IMG/VR virus record: IMGVR_UViG_3300042731_006134
Coordinates: 1-28,286 of that record
Origin: a virus
Length of the DNA stretch: 28,286 nt
Strand: one strand, 5' to 3'
Shown here: positions 6,983-24,281 of the stretch, one piece after another
Layout of the letters: every line of letters begins with the position of its first letter
Numbering within the stretch: the stretch's first letter is position 1
Notes under the pieces: model-generated
What the model was told of the DNA's origin: nothing
Databases searched by the model: none
What the model saw: only the letters and a program-made list of their open reading frames with translations
Translations under genes and position numbers: made by a program

Positions 6983-6999
6983 ATTCTATCCTTTTAAAG

Positions 7000-7082
7000 C
7001 GGAGAAAGGGGGATTCGAACCCCCAAGGCTTTTACACCCGATGGATTAGCAATCCACTCCAATACCTTTATGGGATTTCTCC
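7000..7082 (-). tRNA. tRNA-Ser (anticodon GCT)
   Basis: Read on the minus strand, the acceptor GGAGAAA pairs with TTTCTCC, the anticodon stem GTGGA/TCCAT encloses loop TTGCTAA (anticodon GCT, reading AGC/AGU), and the T stem GGGGG/CCCCC encloses TTCGAAT. The variable region is long, as expected for serine, and position 73 is G. CCA is not encoded (CTT follows), so the host CCA-adding enzyme is needed. The 5' base coincides with the last base of the upstream gene's stop codon, so it must be cut out of an mRNA. Confidence 0.93.
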
Positions 7083-8515: not shown

Positions 8516-9010
8516 TTATTCCCAACCTTTTATTTCTTCTATTTTATATAGCGTAATTCTATCCAATAAGTTATCTGGATACTCTGCTCCTTTTTCGATC
8601 TTTCGAATCCATAGCGGAAAATCTTTATCCTTGTAATATTTTTCACATCTTTCAATGAATCCTTTTAATCTAATCATGACTGAAGGTGGAATTTCAACTA
8701 TAGTTGAAGTATCAGGATTAATATATTTAAATAGGTCTCCATCAGAAATTTCTTCTTCAGTAAAGGATTTTTGAACAAAATAATCAGTATGAAATTTCCA
8801 TTTTTCTGCTCTTAATTTCGCAATTTCAAGACCAAAACCTACAACTCTTTGATTTTTAACATAATCGAATCGGTCTGTAGGGTGACATAGAGCAAATCCG
8901 AAAATTACACTCTGATCATCATCAGGGTCAATTCCACAGAAAAGTACACCTTTCTTATGTCCTTTCTTTCTTCCATTTTTTCTAATGTATTCAATTCTTG
9001 ACATTTCCAT
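8516..9010 (-). CDS. Conserved-looking phage protein of unknown function
   Basis: 164 residues starting MEMSRIEYIRKNGRKKG. The central part (GVLFCGIDPDDDQSVIFGFA, then LCHPTDRFDYV, then a Gly-Phe-Gly stretch and RAEKW) looks like a globular family seen in other large phages, but I cannot name it. No catalytic motif is evident. AAGGAG lies 8 bases before the ATG. A TATAAATA lies about 35 bases upstream of the start, within the end of the previous gene, and may be chance. Confidence 0.65.
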   Translation of the reverse strand: MEMSRIEYIRKNGRKKGHKKGVLFCGIDPDDDQSVIFGFALCHPTDRFDYVKNQRVVGFGLEIAKLRAEKWKFHTDYFVQKSFTEEEISDGDLFKYINPDTSTIVEIPPSVMIRLKGFIERCEKYYKDKDFPLWIRKIEKGAEYPDNLLDRITLYKIEEIKGWE

Positions 9011-9312: not shown

Positions 9313-10185
9313 CTAATAATCTGTTGTATAAGTTAAGTGAAAAGGTTTATCTACCAACTTTCTTTTTGTCCATAAATAGGTATCAACATCTGCAATGTTA
9401 AATCCTGTTGCATATTGTAACATTGTACAGACCTTAATAGTTGCTGCTCTAATTTGTAATTCCATCAGAGAATGTTTTTCAATGAGTCTCCCATTATCTA
9501 CTAACCACTCCAATTCGGGTGAATATTCTATAGCACCAAAATGTCTAAGTATCTTAGGTAGTTGATAATCCGCAGGAACAAATAATGTTACCATTAGATC
9601 ATCCTTGAACCATCCGAATTTCCTATAAAGCTGAATGAAAAACAAGCTTGCTCTTTTTAAGAATTGATCTGATGCAAAACCTGGGAACATTAAGACTAAA
9701 TTATTGAATAATTCCTCACCTGAATATTCTCTTGCACTAACCATATCTGCAAATTTTTCACAATTTCTATATTGACATAGCTCATATAAATGTTTTTTTC
9801 TTTCTTCTAACAAGGGATATCTATGAAAACATAATAGACGTACAAGAGCTTTAATTCTTTCATCAAAATTTAGAGAATGATTAATTGCATCTTCAAAAAT
9901 TTCAGCAACATCATTATACATTGTAGTGCTTGAACAATTATTTGGTCTGATATCATGAGCACCATACCAATAATTATAATTGATTGAACTTGCCACAATT
10001 TCCTTGATGATTTCAAAATATACACCTACTGTATATTCCTTTTTGGTATCATAAAAATTCTGGATACCATCATTTCTCATTTGATGTTCAAGTTTCTCTA
10101 TTTTTTTAATATTTAGAGTAACATAAAAAGGTTCAGTCGCCAATATTACCTCTGACATATTGAAAACATTTTGAATTATATCCAT
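9313..10185 (-). CDS. Queuosine-salvage (DUF2419/Qng1-like) nucleoside glycosylase
   Basis: 290 residues. The distal half matches the Q-salvage family closely in order and spacing: VPADYQLPKILRHFG (203-217), YSPELEWLVD (221-230), then MELQIRAATIKV (241-252) and a final DTYLWTKRK. In this family the enzyme splits queuosine 5'-monophosphate to release queuine for reuse in tRNA anticodons. The N-terminal NYNYWYG (70-75) fits its aromatic pocket. Start: AAGGAG 6 bases before ATG, overlapping the previous TAA. Whether the phage enzyme acts on queuosine or another deazaguanine nucleotide is open. Confidence 0.8.
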   Translation of the reverse strand: MDIIQNVFNMSEVILATEPFYVTLNIKKIEKLEHQMRNDGIQNFYDTKKEYTVGVYFEIIKEIVASSINYNYWYGAHDIRPNNCSSTTMYNDVAEIFEDAINHSLNFDERIKALVRLLCFHRYPLLEERKKHLYELCQYRNCEKFADMVSAREYSGEELFNNLVLMFPGFASDQFLKRASLFFIQLYRKFGWFKDDLMVTLFVPADYQLPKILRHFGAIEYSPELEWLVDNGRLIEKHSLMELQIRAATIKVCTMLQYATGFNIADVDTYLWTKRKLVDKPFHLTYTTDY

Positions 10186-10706
10186 TACTTTCTCCTTTTT
10201 ATAAGATTTGGGTTATCTGGTCTTGTCTTCATGATCTCTGTAATTTGATCGAATGATACAGGATAATAGTTGTTGTTGTCAACCCCAATATCCCATTGTT
10301 TTCCTATAGGTTCTAATTTACCATGAGAATGTCCATATAATTGCCAAGAGTTATAATGAGACCTTGCCCAAGTTCTCATAGAATAATGACATATAACTAT
10401 GTGTCTTTTCTGATGTTTCAGTTCAAATATTTCATGTTCATTCCATCCCTGCAACCAATAATCATGAGACCCTACTATGAACCTATGTTTCCCTTTGAGT
10501 CTCATAATGTATTTCTTATGGACTTTTTCCCTTCCATGCATTAATGTAAAATCACCTGCATGGAAAACGGTATCATCATCAGAGACCACTTCATTGTGAT
10601 TCCTGATTAGGTTCTCATCATGTTCCTCAATGTTGGAATATGGTCTACTGCAATATTTTAGAATGTTCTTATGACCATAATGTTCATCACTAGTGAACCA
10701 AATCAT
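10185..10706 (-). CDS. Calcineurin-like metallophosphoesterase
   Basis: 173 residues with the full set of metal ligands: D7-x-H9 (SDEHYGH), G51-D52 (AGDFT), G-S-H-D (79-82, in place of the usual GNHD), H107 (VICHYSM) and G-H126-S-H128. The two-metal centre hydrolyses phosphoesters. The SDxHxGHKNI start is typical of a small subfamily common in phages, often annotated as phosphoesterase of unknown substrate. His replaces Asn at the GNHD position, which may alter activity. It lies in one coupled run with SLOG and Qng1-like genes. Confidence 0.88.
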   Translation of the reverse strand: MIWFTSDEHYGHKNILKYCSRPYSNIEEHDENLIRNHNEVVSDDDTVFHAGDFTLMHGREKVHKKYIMRLKGKHRFIVGSHDYWLQGWNEHEIFELKHQKRHIVICHYSMRTWARSHYNSWQLYGHSHGKLEPIGKQWDIGVDNNNYYPVSFDQITEIMKTRPDNPNLIKRRK

Positions 10707-11538: not shown

Positions 11539-12510
11539 TTAATCTTTATAATTTAAATTAATGATCTTGAAACTTAATCTTTCAAATTTCACCCTAGTTT
11601 CAACCATAGGTCTGATAACAACCCCTTCTCTATGTCTACCTGAAGGATATCTACCTTCTGCATATTTTCTTAATTGTTCATCAGAAGTGAATGAAAATGT
11701 TTCATCCCAATCAATAATATCGACTGTAGGTAGATTATAAGTTTTACAAAAATTAAGGAAATGTATTGCATTAAGATATTTTCTTTTTTCAATATTCCAT
11801 ACTTGAAAAACTCTAATCTCAAGTTCATCTAATCCAAGTGGATTTTTTTGGATGCCCGGCCCTACCATTTCAAATTGAATAGCGTATCCTTCAGGAATTT
11901 TGTTTTCAATATTATATTTCCTTGCAAGATTCCATACAGCATTGTCACCATCTTTTAATTCAAGATTTCTGCTGCAACATCCAAACTTTCCATCAATAGT
12001 TTTGTATATAGTACCACTAGAACCATCTGCTTTTACAGTGGAATAGAATTTATTTCCTTGTAAGGCATAAACCATATGGTTTGCTGTTTGGAAATTTGGT
12101 TCATCTGTTTTTGGAATAATATTAGTGGGAAAACTTCCTTTTGCCAATCCATGAAGTGAAGCATGAACAGGTTTGGAATATTTCATGACACCTATGGTAT
12201 CAGCTATATTATCACCTATGTTTCCCTCAACGGTAAGTGGCATAATGAGACACTCAGAAGGAACACCTTTGAATCTTTTCATGGAAATACGGTATTTATA
12301 TCTTTCTAGAAAGGAAAATCTATCTTCTTTGGGTAAAATTGCATCTTGAAGATATACTTCACAAAGATCACCTTTATTGAATTGATCTTTTTGTACTGTA
12401 CCACACCATTTTCCCCCCTCACCACATACAACTATTGCAGAAACAATGAAATCTGCTCCTTTTATAGGTTGAATATCGACAATTTTTCCTATATAAGCAA
12501 GTTTATACAT
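11539..12510 (-). CDS. RNA ligase, DRB0094/Rnl5-like
   Basis: 323 residues. The N-terminal 100 residues resemble the OB-fold domain that precedes the catalytic domain in this group. Nucleotidyltransferase motifs follow in order: I, K160-A-D162-G163-S (the lysine forms the AMP adduct); III, F213-E-M-V-G (IQFEMVGPG); IV, E295-G-V-V-I; V, S313-F-K315-I. The family seals 3'-OH/5'-phosphate RNA ends, including nicks in duplexes. In a phage with its own tRNAs, repair of cleaved tRNA is a natural role, but this is inference. AAGGAG precedes the ATG. Confidence 0.88.
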   Translation of the reverse strand: MYKLAYIGKIVDIQPIKGADFIVSAIVVCGEGGKWCGTVQKDQFNKGDLCEVYLQDAILPKEDRFSFLERYKYRISMKRFKGVPSECLIMPLTVEGNIGDNIADTIGVMKYSKPVHASLHGLAKGSFPTNIIPKTDEPNFQTANHMVYALQGNKFYSTVKADGSSGTIYKTIDGKFGCCSRNLELKDGDNAVWNLARKYNIENKIPEGYAIQFEMVGPGIQKNPLGLDELEIRVFQVWNIEKRKYLNAIHFLNFCKTYNLPTVDIIDWDETFSFTSDEQLRKYAEGRYPSGRHREGVVIRPMVETRVKFERLSFKIINLNYKD

Positions 12511-15180: not shown

Positions 15181-16113
15181 ATGTTTTCAAATTTAGTTAA
15201 TTCAGAAAATATAACTGACATTATGATGGAAGCAAACCATAATTTTACAGTCAAAAAAGTTAATCTAAAAACAAAATCTGTCGATAAATTTTTTGATGAT
15301 ATTTCCGTTCCTGACCATGTAGGTATTGTTAGAGAAGATACATTAAATTATCTTGGAACAGTCGGTAAAGGATGGGAACCTGTTCAACCTATTATTCTCT
15401 ATGATTTAGCACAAGAGTTAATTCAATCTTCAAATGGTAAAATCGTAGGAACTTTTACTATGATGAATGGAGCAGTTATAGGTATCGAACTAAATCTTGG
15501 TGAAAGAGAATATGTGGAAGGGCATAAGGTTCAATTAAACTTTCTTATGCTTACCTCTTTTAATGGAATGTATGGAATAGCAGGACACGCAACTATGACA
15601 TATCAAGATTCTTCAATTAATACTTCAAGTAAAGTCTATAATTTACGTCATACAAAATATGTTGCAAATCGTTTAGATGTTGTTAAAGAAATCCTCAAAT
15701 ATTACGAAAAAGAAATTGAAAATTTTGATAAAAAAATGGAAGGTCTTGCTAATAAGCGTTTATCAACTAAAGAAGCTCTTGATTGGTTTCGAAATCTTTT
15801 TCCTAAACCCAAATCAACTCTTGCAGAAAAAAAACTTGAAAATCAAGTTTCTATTTTCTTGAGTTGCCTTGAAAATACAGGAGAAGCAAACACAAGGGGA
15901 GTTAAAGGAACTTCCTATGGTGCTTATATGGCATTAGCTGAATATATCAATCAATTTCGAATGGTAAAAGTTCATAATAACAGAGATGAGGATGAAGTTA
16001 GGTTTCAATCAGTTCATTTTGGTACAGGTAACAAACTTGCTCAAAGGGCCTTGGATTCTCTGTCAAAAAATATCGTTGTGACATTTTCAGAAAATGATTT
16101 TTTAATTGATTAA
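15181..16113 (+). CDS. DUF932 / phage-plasmid-like (TIGR03299) protein
   Basis: 310 residues. The sequence follows the family pattern: VKKVNLKTKSV near the start, then VREDTLNYLGTVGKGWEPVQ (53-72), a repeated beta core (MMNGAVIGIELNLGE), GTSYGAYMALAEYINQFRMV and a final GTGNKLAQRALDSL. The family occurs on phages, plasmids and other mobile elements; its molecular role is not established. AAGGAG lies 6-7 bases before the ATG. It ends TFSENDFLID, a weak echo of the acidic tails on the other strand. tRNA-Trp follows immediately. Confidence 0.85.
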   Translation: MFSNLVNSENITDIMMEANHNFTVKKVNLKTKSVDKFFDDISVPDHVGIVREDTLNYLGTVGKGWEPVQPIILYDLAQELIQSSNGKIVGTFTMMNGAVIGIELNLGEREYVEGHKVQLNFLMLTSFNGMYGIAGHATMTYQDSSINTSSKVYNLRHTKYVANRLDVVKEILKYYEKEIENFDKKMEGLANKRLSTKEALDWFRNLFPKPKSTLAEKKLENQVSIFLSCLENTGEANTRGVKGTSYGAYMALAEYINQFRMVKVHNNRDEDEVRFQSVHFGTGNKLAQRALDSLSKNIVVTFSENDFLID

Positions 16114-16114
16114 T

Positions 16115-16200
16115 ATGGGAGTAGTCTAACTGGCTAGGCACCGGACTCCAAATCCGGGTACATTCGTACAATGCAGGTTCGAACCCTGTCTCCCATGCCA
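16115..16200 (+). tRNA. tRNA-Trp (anticodon CCA) with long variable arm
   Basis: Acceptor ATGGGAG/CTCCCAT, D stem GTCT/AGGC, anticodon stem CCGGA/TCCGG with loop CTCCAAA (anticodon CCA), T stem GCAGG/CCTGT with loop TTCGAAC, G73 and an encoded CCA end. A1-T72, G5-C68, A9 and G73, reported as bacterial tRNA-Trp recognition bases, are all present. The variable region is 15 bases and forms a GTAC/GTAC stem with an ATTC loop, as in class II tRNAs; normal tRNA-Trp has about 5. It starts one base after the preceding stop codon. Confidence 0.88.
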
Positions 16201-16386: not shown

Positions 16387-16950
16387 ATGGAGTCAAACAA
16401 TTACGAATGGTTCATTACCCAAACCGTTGAATCAATGTTGCCTTGTGGTCATGATAGAAATATCTGTCTTGGAATGAAGGTCAAATTGGAATGGACTGAT
16501 CATGGATATGCTGAAGATGGTAACACTAAAGTTCGAGATACCAATAGTTTTATAAGGGAATATATTCTGATATTTCATAGACCATCCAATTATACTAAAG
16601 TCCTATTCAAGGATATCACAAATGAACGGCATTATTGGTTAGATAATAAAGAAATGGAAATGGAACAGCTTTCCGATCATGATAGCTGTTGGAGAAGTGA
16701 TGGAATGAGATGGATGTTCAAGACCTTCATGGAAGCTTGGGAGCACTTTAGAGCAACCCTTGACATTGAAGGTAGAGATATTGACCCAATGGTTCATTGG
16801 GATATCTTTGGTGGGTCTCCAAGATATCTACATCTTGAGAAGCTTGAACTAAAAGATAGGGATGATAGATGGAACTCACCCTATATTGTCAAAACAGGGA
16901 AAAGAATAGAGATGCATGAGATTAGTCAATATATGCCAAAACCAAGATAA
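16387..16950 (+). CDS. Hypothetical protein
   Basis: 187 residues starting MESNNYEWFITQTVESMLPC, rich in Trp, Asp, Arg and His. No catalytic motif or named family is recognised. AGGGAG lies 6-7 bases before the ATG. It is the last rightward gene and meets the tail module head-on; only 5 bases separate the two stop codons. Confidence 0.7.
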   Translation: MESNNYEWFITQTVESMLPCGHDRNICLGMKVKLEWTDHGYAEDGNTKVRDTNSFIREYILIFHRPSNYTKVLFKDITNERHYWLDNKEMEMEQLSDHDSCWRSDGMRWMFKTFMEAWEHFRATLDIEGRDIDPMVHWDIFGGSPRYLHLEKLELKDRDDRWNSPYIVKTGKRIEMHEISQYMPKPR

Positions 16951-16957
16951 TTATCTT
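16944..16957. repeat. Perfect palindrome at convergent gene ends
   Basis: AAGATAATTATCTT is a 14-base perfect palindrome covering the rightward TAA stop and the first bases of the leftward stop. It could form a short AT hairpin in both transcripts but lacks a GC stem and a T-run, so it is a weak terminator at best. Confidence 0.4.
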
Positions 16958-17942
16958 AGAAATTGTTGCTTTTTGACCCCGGAGTGGATGGAATTCTAGC
17001 CACTTCGGGTCTTTGTCCACCTGCTAATTGTTTAGCTCTATCTAATGCATTTGTAATACCTTGAATAGTAGTTGGAACTGCTCCTTGTGCTCTCCTTGAT
17101 TCGGCTTCATTAGGATTTATAACTCTAATTACTGAACCTTCGGTAATAGTGTCTCTATAAAGTGGTGACATATCTTGAAAGGTTAATTGTAAATTTACAC
17201 TTGATGGAACCCCACCTTGTAAATATGGTGCATTCCATGTTGGTTGAACGCCTATCAATGCACAAGTAGTATAATTAATAAATTGATATGGGATAGTTTG
17301 GACTTCCCACATATACGGAAAATCTATTGAAATACCACCCCTAGATGGTAAATGTGGAGATGAATATTTCATCATTTTTTGAATAGGTTTAACTAAAACA
17401 TTTTCAGGATTACTACTTATATTTTCATGAAATAGTTGAAATTCTACAACTAATTGTCTTCTATCTGAATTTGTATAATATAATGGTGTATCAACTTTAA
17501 TTTTTGGTATTACTGAACCAACAACATTTCCATATGCTGCTTTAACAAAATTTTCAATTGCTACTCCTGCATCTGAAGCTTTTGATGAGAATAATTGTTT
17601 TATTTGTTCAGAATTGATCATATTACTTCCTGTCTGTAACAATGCAGCACCTTCAGCACCTAGTTTGACTGCTGATCTAACTTTCTGAGCTATTCTTGAT
17701 GCAACTGATTCATAAGCTTCCCAATGATGAACTATATTTTCATTAAGACTTAATGGAGCTTGAAAAACAAATGTTTCGGGTAATTCTTCTGTTGCTATAG
17801 CACCAACTCCTTTGGAAAACTGATCTAAAATTTTTCTTGGTTTCATGGAAATCCAAACAGTACCACTTTTATCTTTAACTTGAGCTTGTTTAGACCAAGG
17901 ATTTAATTTAGTCGGTCTCTGTATCATTATCTCTCTTTCCAT
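16956..17942 (-). CDS. Baseplate tail-tube cap protein, T4 gp48/gp54-like
   Basis: 328 residues. The order and character match T4-type tube-cap proteins: ETFVFQAPLSLNENIVHHWE (56-75), a Gly/Ala-rich stretch, then DTPLYYTNSDRRQLVVEFQLF (about 157-177), the IPYQFINYTTCALIGVQPTW block and SSVNLQLTFQDMSPLYRDTI. In T4, gp48 and gp54 join the baseplate to the tail tube and start tube growth. The gene directly follows the tape-measure gene, as 48 and 54 follow 29 in T4. Which of the two it corresponds to is undecided. Confidence 0.65.
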   Translation of the reverse strand: MEREIMIQRPTKLNPWSKQAQVKDKSGTVWISMKPRKILDQFSKGVGAIATEELPETFVFQAPLSLNENIVHHWEAYESVASRIAQKVRSAVKLGAEGAALLQTGSNMINSEQIKQLFSSKASDAGVAIENFVKAAYGNVVGSVIPKIKVDTPLYYTNSDRRQLVVEFQLFHENISSNPENVLVKPIQKMMKYSSPHLPSRGGISIDFPYMWEVQTIPYQFINYTTCALIGVQPTWNAPYLQGGVPSSVNLQLTFQDMSPLYRDTITEGSVIRVINPNEAESRRAQGAVPTTIQGITNALDRAKQLAGGQRPEVARIPSTPGSKSNNF

Positions 17943-20607: not shown

Positions 20608-21162
20608 TTATTGATTTTGTGCTCCCCCTCTTTCTGTAAAAGTTACCTCATGATAACTATATGTATAAGTTACATCAAAAGTTGCAACTTCAGTAGATGA
20701 ATAATCCATCTGAATTTGTGATATCTCTTTAGGCCAAGCATCATGAATTGTAAATTCAAGAATCACATCACCCTCATAACCAATCATTTGAAGGGTTTGA
20801 TCCATCATATAAACATCATGAGTTGCATAAAAGTTATCTACTGGATTATGACAGAGATTAGACCACTTTTCGAATGTGCTTCTAATTTTAGCTTCCAAGT
20901 CCACATTAAATGTTATAACAAAATCTGTATATGTGTGCTTGCCCGGAAACTTCCAATCAAAACCCTGCCAATTTAATGTAACTTCTTCAAGAGCAGTGGA
21001 AGGCATCTGAGCAGTTTTAACCAAATAAATAGCATCCTCTTGTGTTAAGTCTGCTTGTAGACCAACAGGCCATTGTGGTTGATAGTAAAATAAACTACTC
21101 TTAGCACCGTCACCAAATCGGGCTTTAAAAGCTTCTATGTTAAACGATCTTACATCAGGCAT
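20608..21162 (-). CDS. Tail tube protein, T4 gp19-like
   Basis: 184 residues. The gp19 tube pattern is clear: LEEVTLNWQGFDWKFPGKHT, TDFVITFNVDLEAKIRSTFE, a YEGDVILEFTIHDAWPKEIS strand pair, then DYSSTEVATFDVTYTYSYHE. Hexamers of this protein stack inside the sheath to make the DNA channel. AGGAG precedes the ATG, and a TATAAATA lies about 20 bases upstream. It sits three genes after the sheath; in T4, 19 follows 18 directly. Confidence 0.85.
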   Translation of the reverse strand: MPDVRSFNIEAFKARFGDGAKSSLFYYQPQWPVGLQADLTQEDAIYLVKTAQMPSTALEEVTLNWQGFDWKFPGKHTYTDFVITFNVDLEAKIRSTFEKWSNLCHNPVDNFYATHDVYMMDQTLQMIGYEGDVILEFTIHDAWPKEISQIQMDYSSTEVATFDVTYTYSYHEVTFTERGGAQNQ

Positions 21163-22454: not shown

Positions 22455-24281
22455 TTACGGAGTAGTTGCTGCAACTAATTCCGTAAAACTTGCTCCTGTT
22501 TTTGTAGCAATCAAGTTTAGAACTATAAATTCTGCTGCTCTAGTAGGCTTAATATAAATATCAACCCATAACTCATTTCTATCTATTCTTTCAGGTGTGT
22601 TATTTCTATCATCACATACAATTAAATAATCAAAAACACCCCTTCTTGCTACAACATCTCTTAAAAATGGGTCTATCATATTTATGATTGCTAATCTTGT
22701 AAATGTATCGTTTGGTTCAAACAAAAAGTATTTCAATGCTGTACTAATTGCTTTACCAATTATAATAAAAAGTCTTCTAACATTAATTCTATTGAATGCT
22801 GAAGTCTTATCAAGCATGTTCTTTTGGCCCCAAACAACCTTTCCTTGACCTGGAAAGCTTACTATTGGATTCATTCCATTCTTATATAAGATATCCCTTT
22901 CACCCTTAGTTGGATTCCAAGCTAACTTTCTAACATTATTTAAAATACCTCTATTTAACCCCGCAGGAGCAAACCAAGCTTCCGCAACATTGTCTGTATT
23001 GGCATAAATACCTGCTACATGTCCTGAAGATGGTATCCATCTATGTTTCGCATTCCATTTATCATATACATTCAGCCAATTAGTATATGTTGCAATATAA
23101 CTTGAATTCTCATTTAGATTATATGTACCATGTAAACCTAATCTATAATCTCTACAATCTGTAGCTTCATTACTTCTATTATTAATAACTAATGAACTAG
23201 GTACATCAAGAACTGCAACTGCATCTGCTCTACCTTCACATATACTCTTTAGTGATTGTTTAACTGTAGTTGATTTTCCAGAATCAATAAAAATATTAAC
23301 ATCAATTGTTTCAGCATCACTATAAAGTTCATATGCTTCAATTACATCAGCATCGGTTATACTATCTCCTTGACTTCGAACTCCACCACCAAGATTATCA
23401 TATCCATCCATATATTTGTTTTTAAAGCTTTTATTTTTAAAGCTTGCTGCAACTGAACATCTAATATAATTTGAGTTATTATTAATCCAATTTTCAATGA
23501 ATATATTAGCACCTGTATCATCTATTTCTGTTGGGTCTGAACTTACAAGATGAGTTTCGACTACTTGATAAGGTATTGGATTATTTGTTACGTTTTGTTG
23601 TTTTGCTGCTCTAATAACTATTAATAATTGTTGATCATCTGAAAATGCAACATCTACTTGTTCATCAAGATCATCATATAGCTCTGATGATATACCTATA
23701 GCACTTGCAGCTAATTGTCCTTGTCTTACTTTAGTATAAGTTTCTCTACCAACAATTCCCACTTGCACGTAATTTCCCCATTCCCCTCTACTTTTAGCTA
23801 TAATAGCTAATTCTGAACCATTATCGGGTCTTCCTGCATCAAAAACTGTTGATTCTTCACCAAACTCATCAGGGTCTTGTGAACTCAAATCAGATAGTTG
23901 ATAACCATTACCTGATGTATATTGAGTTAAAGAACTTCCTGATGTTACTGTTCCATATGCACCCGAAAATGTAGCACTTGGAGCTAAAACTCTTGTACAA
24001 TACAAATTTTGACCATATTGTAGAAAACCTGCTGCTGCCATTATATCCTCATAGGATTGTCCTCTTGTTGAAAAATTAGAGGTAGCTGTTCCTAAAGCTT
24101 CTTCAGGTCTACCAAAAAGTTCAATTAATTCATCAATATTATTGACTAATTGTTCCTTTAATTCAGGCCCCTTCCAAGTATCTCTTAAAACAATTACACC
24201 AATTGAGGTAGCAACTGCTGGAATAGTTGTAGTTAAGTCAATTTCGTTTACATCTACCAAAGGTGATAAATACATAGTCAT
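22455..24281 (-). CDS. Tail sheath protein, T4 gp18-like
   Basis: 608 residues. The start (LSPLVDVNEIDLTTTIPAVA, then TSIGVIVLRDTWKGP) is the sheath N-terminal arm. The C-terminal domain (NRINVRRLFIIIGKAISTAL, FEPNDTFTRLAIINMIDPFL, VDIYIKPTRAAEFIVLNLIA) is the most conserved part of contractile sheaths. The centre is the variable insertion. Rings of this protein contract to drive the tube into the host. AGGGGGAAATTATT precedes the ATG, and a hairpin and TATAAATA lie in the 86-base leader. Confidence 0.95.
   Translation of the reverse strand: MTMYLSPLVDVNEIDLTTTIPAVATSIGVIVLRDTWKGPELKEQLVNNIDELIELFGRPEEALGTATSNFSTRGQSYEDIMAAAGFLQYGQNLYCTRVLAPSATFSGAYGTVTSGSSLTQYTSGNGYQLSDLSSQDPDEFGEESTVFDAGRPDNGSELAIIAKSRGEWGNYVQVGIVGRETYTKVRQGQLAASAIGISSELYDDLDEQVDVAFSDDQQLLIVIRAAKQQNVTNNPIPYQVVETHLVSSDPTEIDDTGANIFIENWINNNSNYIRCSVAASFKNKSFKNKYMDGYDNLGGGVRSQGDSITDADVIEAYELYSDAETIDVNIFIDSGKSTTVKQSLKSICEGRADAVAVLDVPSSLVINNRSNEATDCRDYRLGLHGTYNLNENSSYIATYTNWLNVYDKWNAKHRWIPSSGHVAGIYANTDNVAEAWFAPAGLNRGILNNVRKLAWNPTKGERDILYKNGMNPIVSFPGQGKVVWGQKNMLDKTSAFNRINVRRLFIIIGKAISTALKYFLFEPNDTFTRLAIINMIDPFLRDVVARRGVFDYLIVCDDRNNTPERIDRNELWVDIYIKPTRAAEFIVLNLIATKTGASFTELVAATTP

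Follow-up and report, generated by a model that had tools for sequence, protein, structure and literature searches.

A long variable arm is normally carried only by the tRNAs for serine, leucine and tyrosine. In nematodes, the nev-tRNAs (Gly-CCC and Ile-UAU) combine class I anticodons with variable arms of 15–20 nt; these eukaryotic tRNAs have a Leu-like arm and accept leucine in vitro (PMC4300185). Allo-tRNAs and the selC* tRNA-Cys also bear long arms outside the canonical Ser, Leu and Tyr anticodons; they are tRNA-Sec-like and have extended acceptor branches (PMC7609411). In phage T5, the natively class II tRNA-Tyr has a variable region unlike that of the host, which is reported to prevent cleavage (PMC11555353; PMC13096335) and, as a distinctive loop, to make the tRNA resistant to retron-Eco7 (PMC13096335).

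Two cultured Caulobacter phages, CcrColossus (JX100810, 59240–59325) and CcrPW (MH588545), encode identical 86-nt tRNA-Trp(CCA) genes with a 14-nt arm. These genes are annotated simply as tRNA-Trp, and the tRNA passages of the CcrColossus genome paper (PMC3556154) make no structural remark on the arm. CcrColossus (L301) also carries a 90-nt tRNA-Lys(CUU) with a 17-nt variable arm at 8780–8869. A literature search, whose coverage ended at subscription papers, found no published account of long-arm tRNA-Trp in phages.

Here we describe a tRNA-Trp(CCA) gene with a class-II-like arm in a 28-kb virus contig with contractile-tail genes; the whole stretch of 28,286 nucleotides is called the window below (Table 1). 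ARAGORN returned exactly the span 16115–16200 on the plus strand, and Rfam RF00005 matched positions 16115–16197 with a score of 50.4 bits, the cut-off being 29. Read in order, the gene is AUGGGAG-UA-GUCUAACUGGCUAGGC-A-CCGGA(CUCCAAA)UCCGG-GUACAUUCGUACAAU-GCAGG(UUCGAAC)CCUGU-CUCCCAU-G-CCA. The anticodon CCA sits in a 7-nt loop (ARAGORN, Rfam), as expected of a tRNA-Trp, and U48 of the AAU that follows the variable-arm stem can make an A15-U48 Levitt pair. Folding of the RNA without constraints gave the cloverleaf, with the variable region forming a 4-bp hairpin of its own (z = −2.9). The gene begins 2 nt past the stop codon of the DUF932 gene and lies ahead of the gene for a 187-aa protein, which has no family match in Pfam or PHROG.

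Table 1. Coordinates of the tRNA-Trp gene, its parts, other features of the window and orthologous genes
Feature	Position	Strand	Basis or remark
tRNA-Ser(GCU), 16-nt variable arm	6999–7082	−	In minus-strand cluster of small genes
Queuosine salvage protein (PF10343)	9313–10185	−	Related to tRNA modification
Metallophosphoesterase-like protein	10185–10706		Adjoins queuosine salvage gene
RNA ligase (PF09414, PHROG 968)	11539–12510	−	Closest PDB entry: Naegleria gruberi RNA ligase 5cot
Upstream neighbour, DUF932 protein (Pfam PF06067)	15181–16113	+	Orthologues mark the site in related phages
Whole tRNA-Trp(CCA), 86 nt, 3' CCA encoded	16115–16200	+	ARAGORN; Rfam RF00005, 50.4 bits
Acceptor stem, 5' strand AUGGGAG (A1, U2, G5)	16115–16121	+	7/7 pairs with 16190–16196
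U8 A9, between acceptor 5' strand and D-arm		+	Direct reading
D-arm GUCUAACUGGCUAGGC, class I type	16124–16139	+	G18G19 present, U13-A22 paired; Rfam alignment, parse
Anticodon arm CCGGA-CUCCAAA-UCCGG	16141–16157	+	ARAGORN, Rfam, parse
Anticodon CCA (position 34), reads UGG (Trp)	16148–16150	+	ARAGORN
Variable region GUACAUUCGUACAAU, 15 nt, class-II-like arm	16158–16172	+	Orthologues 4–5 nt
Variable-arm stem, 5' strand GUAC	16158–16161	+	Fold
Variable-arm stem, 3' strand GUAC, then AAU	16166–16169	+	Fold
T-arm GCAGG-UUCGAAC-CCUGU	16173–16189	+	ARAGORN, Rfam
Acceptor stem, 3' strand CUCCCAU (U72)	16190–16196	+	
G73 discriminator and encoded CCA	16197–16200	+	
Downstream neighbour, 187-aa protein	16387–16950	+	Orthologues mark the site in related phages (synteny)
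Weak match to tail-tube-cap	16956–17942		
Tail tube	20608–21162		
Tail sheath	22455–24281		
Orthologous tRNA-Trp in L009	8487–8560		
Orthologous tRNA-Trp in L010	8200–8273		

The window gene agrees with ordinary class I bacterial and phage tRNA-Trp(CCA) in its anticodon, A1-U72, G5-C68, A9, G73 and D-arm, and it shares its genomic site with class I orthologues. The variable region of ordinary tRNA-Trp, however, has 4–5 nt, which is the range of class I, whereas that of the window gene has 15 nt and a 4-bp stem in the minimum-energy fold, as is typical of class II (more than 10 nt, stem-forming). Like the nev-tRNAs, the gene joins a class I anticodon to a variable arm, but it has G73 and the Trp acceptor bases. 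Its acceptor branch is the canonical 7/5 (ARAGORN, Rfam), unlike the 8/4, 9/3 or 13-bp branches of allo-tRNAs and tRNA-Sec-like molecules. The genes of CcrColossus and CcrPW share A1-U72, G73 and the long arm with it, but are built on an unrelated scaffold with a class II, Tyr-like D-arm (CCAGAGCGGTCAAATGGG) instead of the class I D-arm of the window gene.

The preliminary description of this DNA had pointed to a 15-nt variable region with a perfect GUAC/GUAC stem. Both are present (ARAGORN, Rfam and direct reading), but the perfection of the stem is not striking by itself: a 4-bp Watson-Crick stem arises in 10% of shuffles of the window 15-mer and in 5% of random 15-mers. The hairpin alone is therefore weak evidence, and we do not treat it as remarkable. 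The real observation is the length of the insert and its position in an otherwise intact tRNA.

Such an insert might also stem from faulty sequencing or assembly, or mark a pseudogene in decay. Strict-pattern scans of IMG/VR, in which near-identical records may be omitted, revealed no other viral contig carrying the exact arm, and BLAST of the locus against INPHARED gave no match. With one contig as the only source of this exact arm, an assembly error keeps a formal place among the explanations, and the arm does contain an 8-nt near-repeat. Nevertheless, every stem of the gene pairs, the Rfam score is high above its cut-off, U48 and the T-arm are undisturbed by an insert that is confined to the variable region, and comparable arms occur in many phages, including the independently sequenced CcrColossus and CcrPW. 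We regard an artefact or a pseudogene as very unlikely.

To place the gene in its genomic setting, relatives of the window were found via the tail sheath (19 viral loci with a related sheath) and a 328-aa protein (L300); patterns of the DUF932 protein, used as search query, yielded no relatives. Additional partial sheath copies of about 112 aa lie beside the full copy in L007, L008 and L009. Between orthologues of the same two neighbouring genes, L009 and L010 contain a tRNA-Trp whose variable loop has 5 nt. L300 (also retrieved as L302) has a tRNA-Trp with a 4-nt loop in the same gap, which reads AUGGGAA-UG-AUCUAAAUGGCAAUGAG-A-AUAGA(CUCCAAA)UCUAU-UAAU-GAGGG(UUCGAAU)CCUUC-UUCCCAU-GCCA and has six of seven acceptor pairs in common with the window gene, including A1-U72 and U2-A71. 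In L004 the same two genes are separated by 19 bp that contain no tRNA. Because this site holds class I orthologues or no tRNA at all, the arm was most likely gained in the window lineage on an ancestral class I tRNA-Trp, with the addition of about 10–11 nt. We rejected the possibility that the window gene is a tRNA-Ser or tRNA-Tyr converted by an anticodon change, as both its D-arm and its site are those of a class I tRNA-Trp.

Comparison of the three orthologues also bears on function. In them the acceptor, anticodon and T stems retain every one of their 17 pairs; eight have changed on both sides and three on one side. This conservation makes the gene look functional, a kept tRNA rather than a pseudogene. 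Conservation is poorer in the D-arms: the D-loop of L009 and L010 lacks G18G19, and the D-stem of L300 is weak.

The arm itself can be divided into two imperfect tandem copies of 8 nt, GTACATTC|GTACAATG, with 6/8 identical positions, and its source was probably an imperfect tandem duplication of 8 nt. As GTAC is its own reverse complement, a single duplication step would make a hairpin.

Identification of the gene as tRNA-Trp had been based on the anticodon CCA together with A1-U72, G5-C68, A9 and G73. All of these are present on direct reading, and the last four make up the bacterial Trp recognition set (PMC9976931 and the preliminary description). Pairs 3-70 and 4-69 are G-C and pair 2-71 is U-A, while the set G2-C71/G3-C70/G4-C69 has been shown for B. 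subtilis only; U2-A71 also occurs in L300. The preliminary description had further suggested that the arm might change charging, for instance by SerRS. In serine tRNAs identity lies mainly in the long arm and G73, and in bacteria also in G1-C72 and G2-C71, two pairs that show no variation in the tRNA-Ser of E. coli and most bacteria (PMC9976931). With its long arm and G73 the window gene could thus resemble a SerRS substrate, and the leucine accepted in vitro by nev-tRNAs with added V-arms (PMC4300185) shows the kind of switch that would lead to misreading of UGG or phage recoding. However, its first pairs are A1-U72 and U2-A71, and G1-C72 with G2-C71 was found in 113/125 phage tRNA-Ser vs 5/73 long-arm tRNA-Trp, where 1-72 is A-U or G-U in 63 of the 73 genes. 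These counts contradict charging by SerRS: with Trp-type acceptor ends (U72, G73) kept, recharging by this enzyme is unlikely. Similarly, tRNA-Leu and tRNA-Tyr would have A73, and the G73 of the window gene argues against LeuRS and TyrRS. Mischarging would be costly, given that 1.9% of the window's codons are UGG. Every Trp recognition base being kept, we consider it highly improbable that the arm would turn the tRNA into a substrate of SerRS, LeuRS or TyrRS. TrpRS is the likely charging enzyme, and an identity switch as in the nev-tRNAs is not expected.

The distribution of such genes was studied in IMG/VR with a pattern for tRNA-Trp with a variable region of 10–24 nt, G73 and encoded CCA. 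It matched at least 119 stretches, nearly all of them real tRNA-Trp genes with arms of 10–20 nt. When the pattern was widened to admit short loops, 11 of 120 stretches (about 9%) were long-armed, all repeats of the long-arm set, and the other 109 were new and short. Thus the class-II-like arm on tRNA-Trp, first seen as an oddity of this locus, is real but not singular: the window gene belongs to a phenomenon that recurs in phages and of which our search found no published description.

With the arm left out, the long-arm genes fell into 18 groups at 80% identity. For 16 of these, a tRNA-Trp or another non-Ser scaffold is a member or the nearest neighbour. Most groups are closest to short-arm tRNA-Trp, while L028 and L086 are closest to tRNA-Ser. 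These scaffolds suggest that the arm probably has several separate origins, having grown on Trp scaffolds and, in a few phages, on class II scaffolds, although the short sequences limit the count. Conversion by an anticodon change fits L028, L086 and CcrColossus. In one family with arms of equal length, 94% of the stem cells of the variable arm pair, three of five pairs change on both sides (vs none with a slid partner), and the covariation score lies above all 500 shuffles. Over 68 distinct long arms the longest stem has a mean of 3.75 pairs, compared with 2.88 after shuffling.

Long arms are not confined to tRNA-Trp among phage class I tRNAs. They were observed on tRNA-Asn (12/72), tRNA-Cys (7) and tRNA-Lys (9), and also on His and Thr tRNAs, each keeping its own discriminator base (L116, L130, L144, L027, L055, L095, L061 and others). 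In tRNA-Ile-UAU, arms of 20–25 nt, in which the loop motif CAGAT recurs, were found together with A73 in 23/26 distinct phage genes (L028, L031, L066, L086, L102, L192, L203 and others), which possibly form a separate long-arm family. Many phage tRNA-Leu, in turn, have short variable loops.

In cellular genomes the long-arm tRNA-Trp seems to be far rarer than in phages. A scan of about 85,000 species genomes of prokaryotes with the long-arm pattern produced 43 matches, of which about eight are true long-arm tRNA-Trp. The long-arm share is about 0.2% in cells vs 9% in phages, a rough figure extrapolated from one phylum with a pattern that suits phage T-stems more than cellular ones (short-loop match in only about 4% of 200 Pseudomonadota genomes). 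One match (L157) is on a phage-like contig, another (L181) is in a tRNA cluster of a candidate phylum, and in L153, L158 and L186 the long-arm gene occurs alongside a normal tRNA-Trp of the same genome. We rejected a host origin of long-arm tRNA-Trp, given the small number of true matches and the misbinned or mobile-looking contigs on which several of them lie.

Some cellular loci deserve separate mention. L158 and L186, from Bryobacterales MAGs, carry a serine-type tRNA with a CCA anticodon, G1-C72, G2-C71, G73 and a 23-nt arm, a candidate mistranslating tRNA that reads UGG. Among the tRNA clusters on MAG contigs of candidate phyla, L181 (Sungbacteria MAG, 210–296) and L153/L169 include a long-arm tRNA-Trp gene with G1-C72; in the L181 genome the long-arm gene is the only tRNA-Trp pattern match. 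A Photobacterium jeanii contig (L172) contains an array of 18 tRNAs, solely Arg-ACG and Ser-GCU copies.

What the arm does can be approached by weighing several explanations. We consider it reasonably probable that the window gene gives a TrpRS-charged, UGG-decoding phage tRNA whose arm was gained in the lineage and kept for changed recognition by a host factor. Such a functional, expressed tRNA would receive tryptophan from the host TrpRS. The ancestral class I gene at this site would have gained its additional nucleotides through the duplication described above, the palindromic GTAC copies pairing at once as a hairpin. Tolerance of the arm would follow from the fact that class II tRNAs are in any case used by EF-Tu and the ribosome, and that TrpRS reads its tRNA at the acceptor end and the anticodon. 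The arm may then change how a host factor recognises the tRNA. The most plausible such factor is a defence tRNase, in which case the phage tRNA-Trp would survive while host tRNA-Trp is attacked. Cleavage of tRNAs is a widespread form of host defence, and some of these systems are evaded by phage tRNAs (PMC10264068, PMC11555353). By analogy with T5 tRNA-Tyr, which also differs from its host counterpart in the variable region, nuclease evasion by the armed tRNA-Trp, also suggested in the preliminary description, is plausible, although T5 tRNA-Tyr is class II by nature and evades a known system, retron-Eco7, while no nuclease that targets tRNA-Trp is known for the host of the window phage. Taken on its own, the protective role of the arm is a possibility that we put forward with reserve. 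Still more tentatively, phages might have repeatedly grafted class II arms on tRNA-Trp, and on the Asn, Cys and Ile-UAU tRNAs, keeping the cognate acceptor bases, as a shield against host nucleases.

On the other hand, the long arms on Asn, Cys, Ile-UAU and other tRNAs could mean a generally relaxed constraint and not a selected function. Under neutral drift, weakly constrained phage tRNAs would occasionally tolerate an expansion of the variable region that plays no role. Armed Asn, Cys, Lys, His and Thr tRNAs and short-armed tRNA-Leu are in line with this, the degraded D-arms of the L009 and L300 orthologues are also compatible with relaxed selection, and one small duplication could supply the window arm. 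However, the arms are unevenly spread, with 9% of tRNA-Trp vs about 1.5% of the other class I isotypes pooled (Ile-UAU excluded) and none in several common isotypes such as Met, Pro and Glu, and the well-sampled family has a covarying arm stem kept through many phages. We find drift rather doubtful as an explanation.

Alternatively, the arm might hold the tRNA of an AT-rich phage in the cloverleaf. The mean cloverleaf pair probability is indeed 0.97 for the window gene, compared with 0.70 and 0.74 for the orthologues. This difference did not extend to natural phage tRNA-Trp, where long-arm genes (0.754) and short-arm genes (0.714) did not differ (p = 0.16). A folding aid is thus improbable, and we rejected this role.

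Two other genes of the window may bear on tRNA metabolism, the queuosine salvage gene and the RNA ligase (Table 1). Enzymes of the ligase kind serve in tRNA repair, and the one encoded here, a candidate for that role, fits a history of RNA damage, though it is not specific to it.

In conclusion, the window gene is a real tRNA-Trp that probably gained its class-II-like arm recently and is probably functional, as judged from its sequence and that of its relatives. The case also holds a warning for annotation: ARAGORN missed the class I orthologue in a first look at the L300 region, and long-arm genes are labelled plain tRNA-Trp. The short-arm and long-arm classes of the textbooks are tied to amino acid identity, and phages repeatedly break this tie for tryptophan. 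Since the Trp recognition bases are kept despite the arm, these genes are natural experiments on the tolerance of TrpRS, EF-Tu and the ribosome, and CcrColossus with its host Caulobacter CB15 can be taken to the bench now. They also offer a testable idea on why phages carry tRNAs, namely that modified copies may escape the tRNA-cutting defences of the host.
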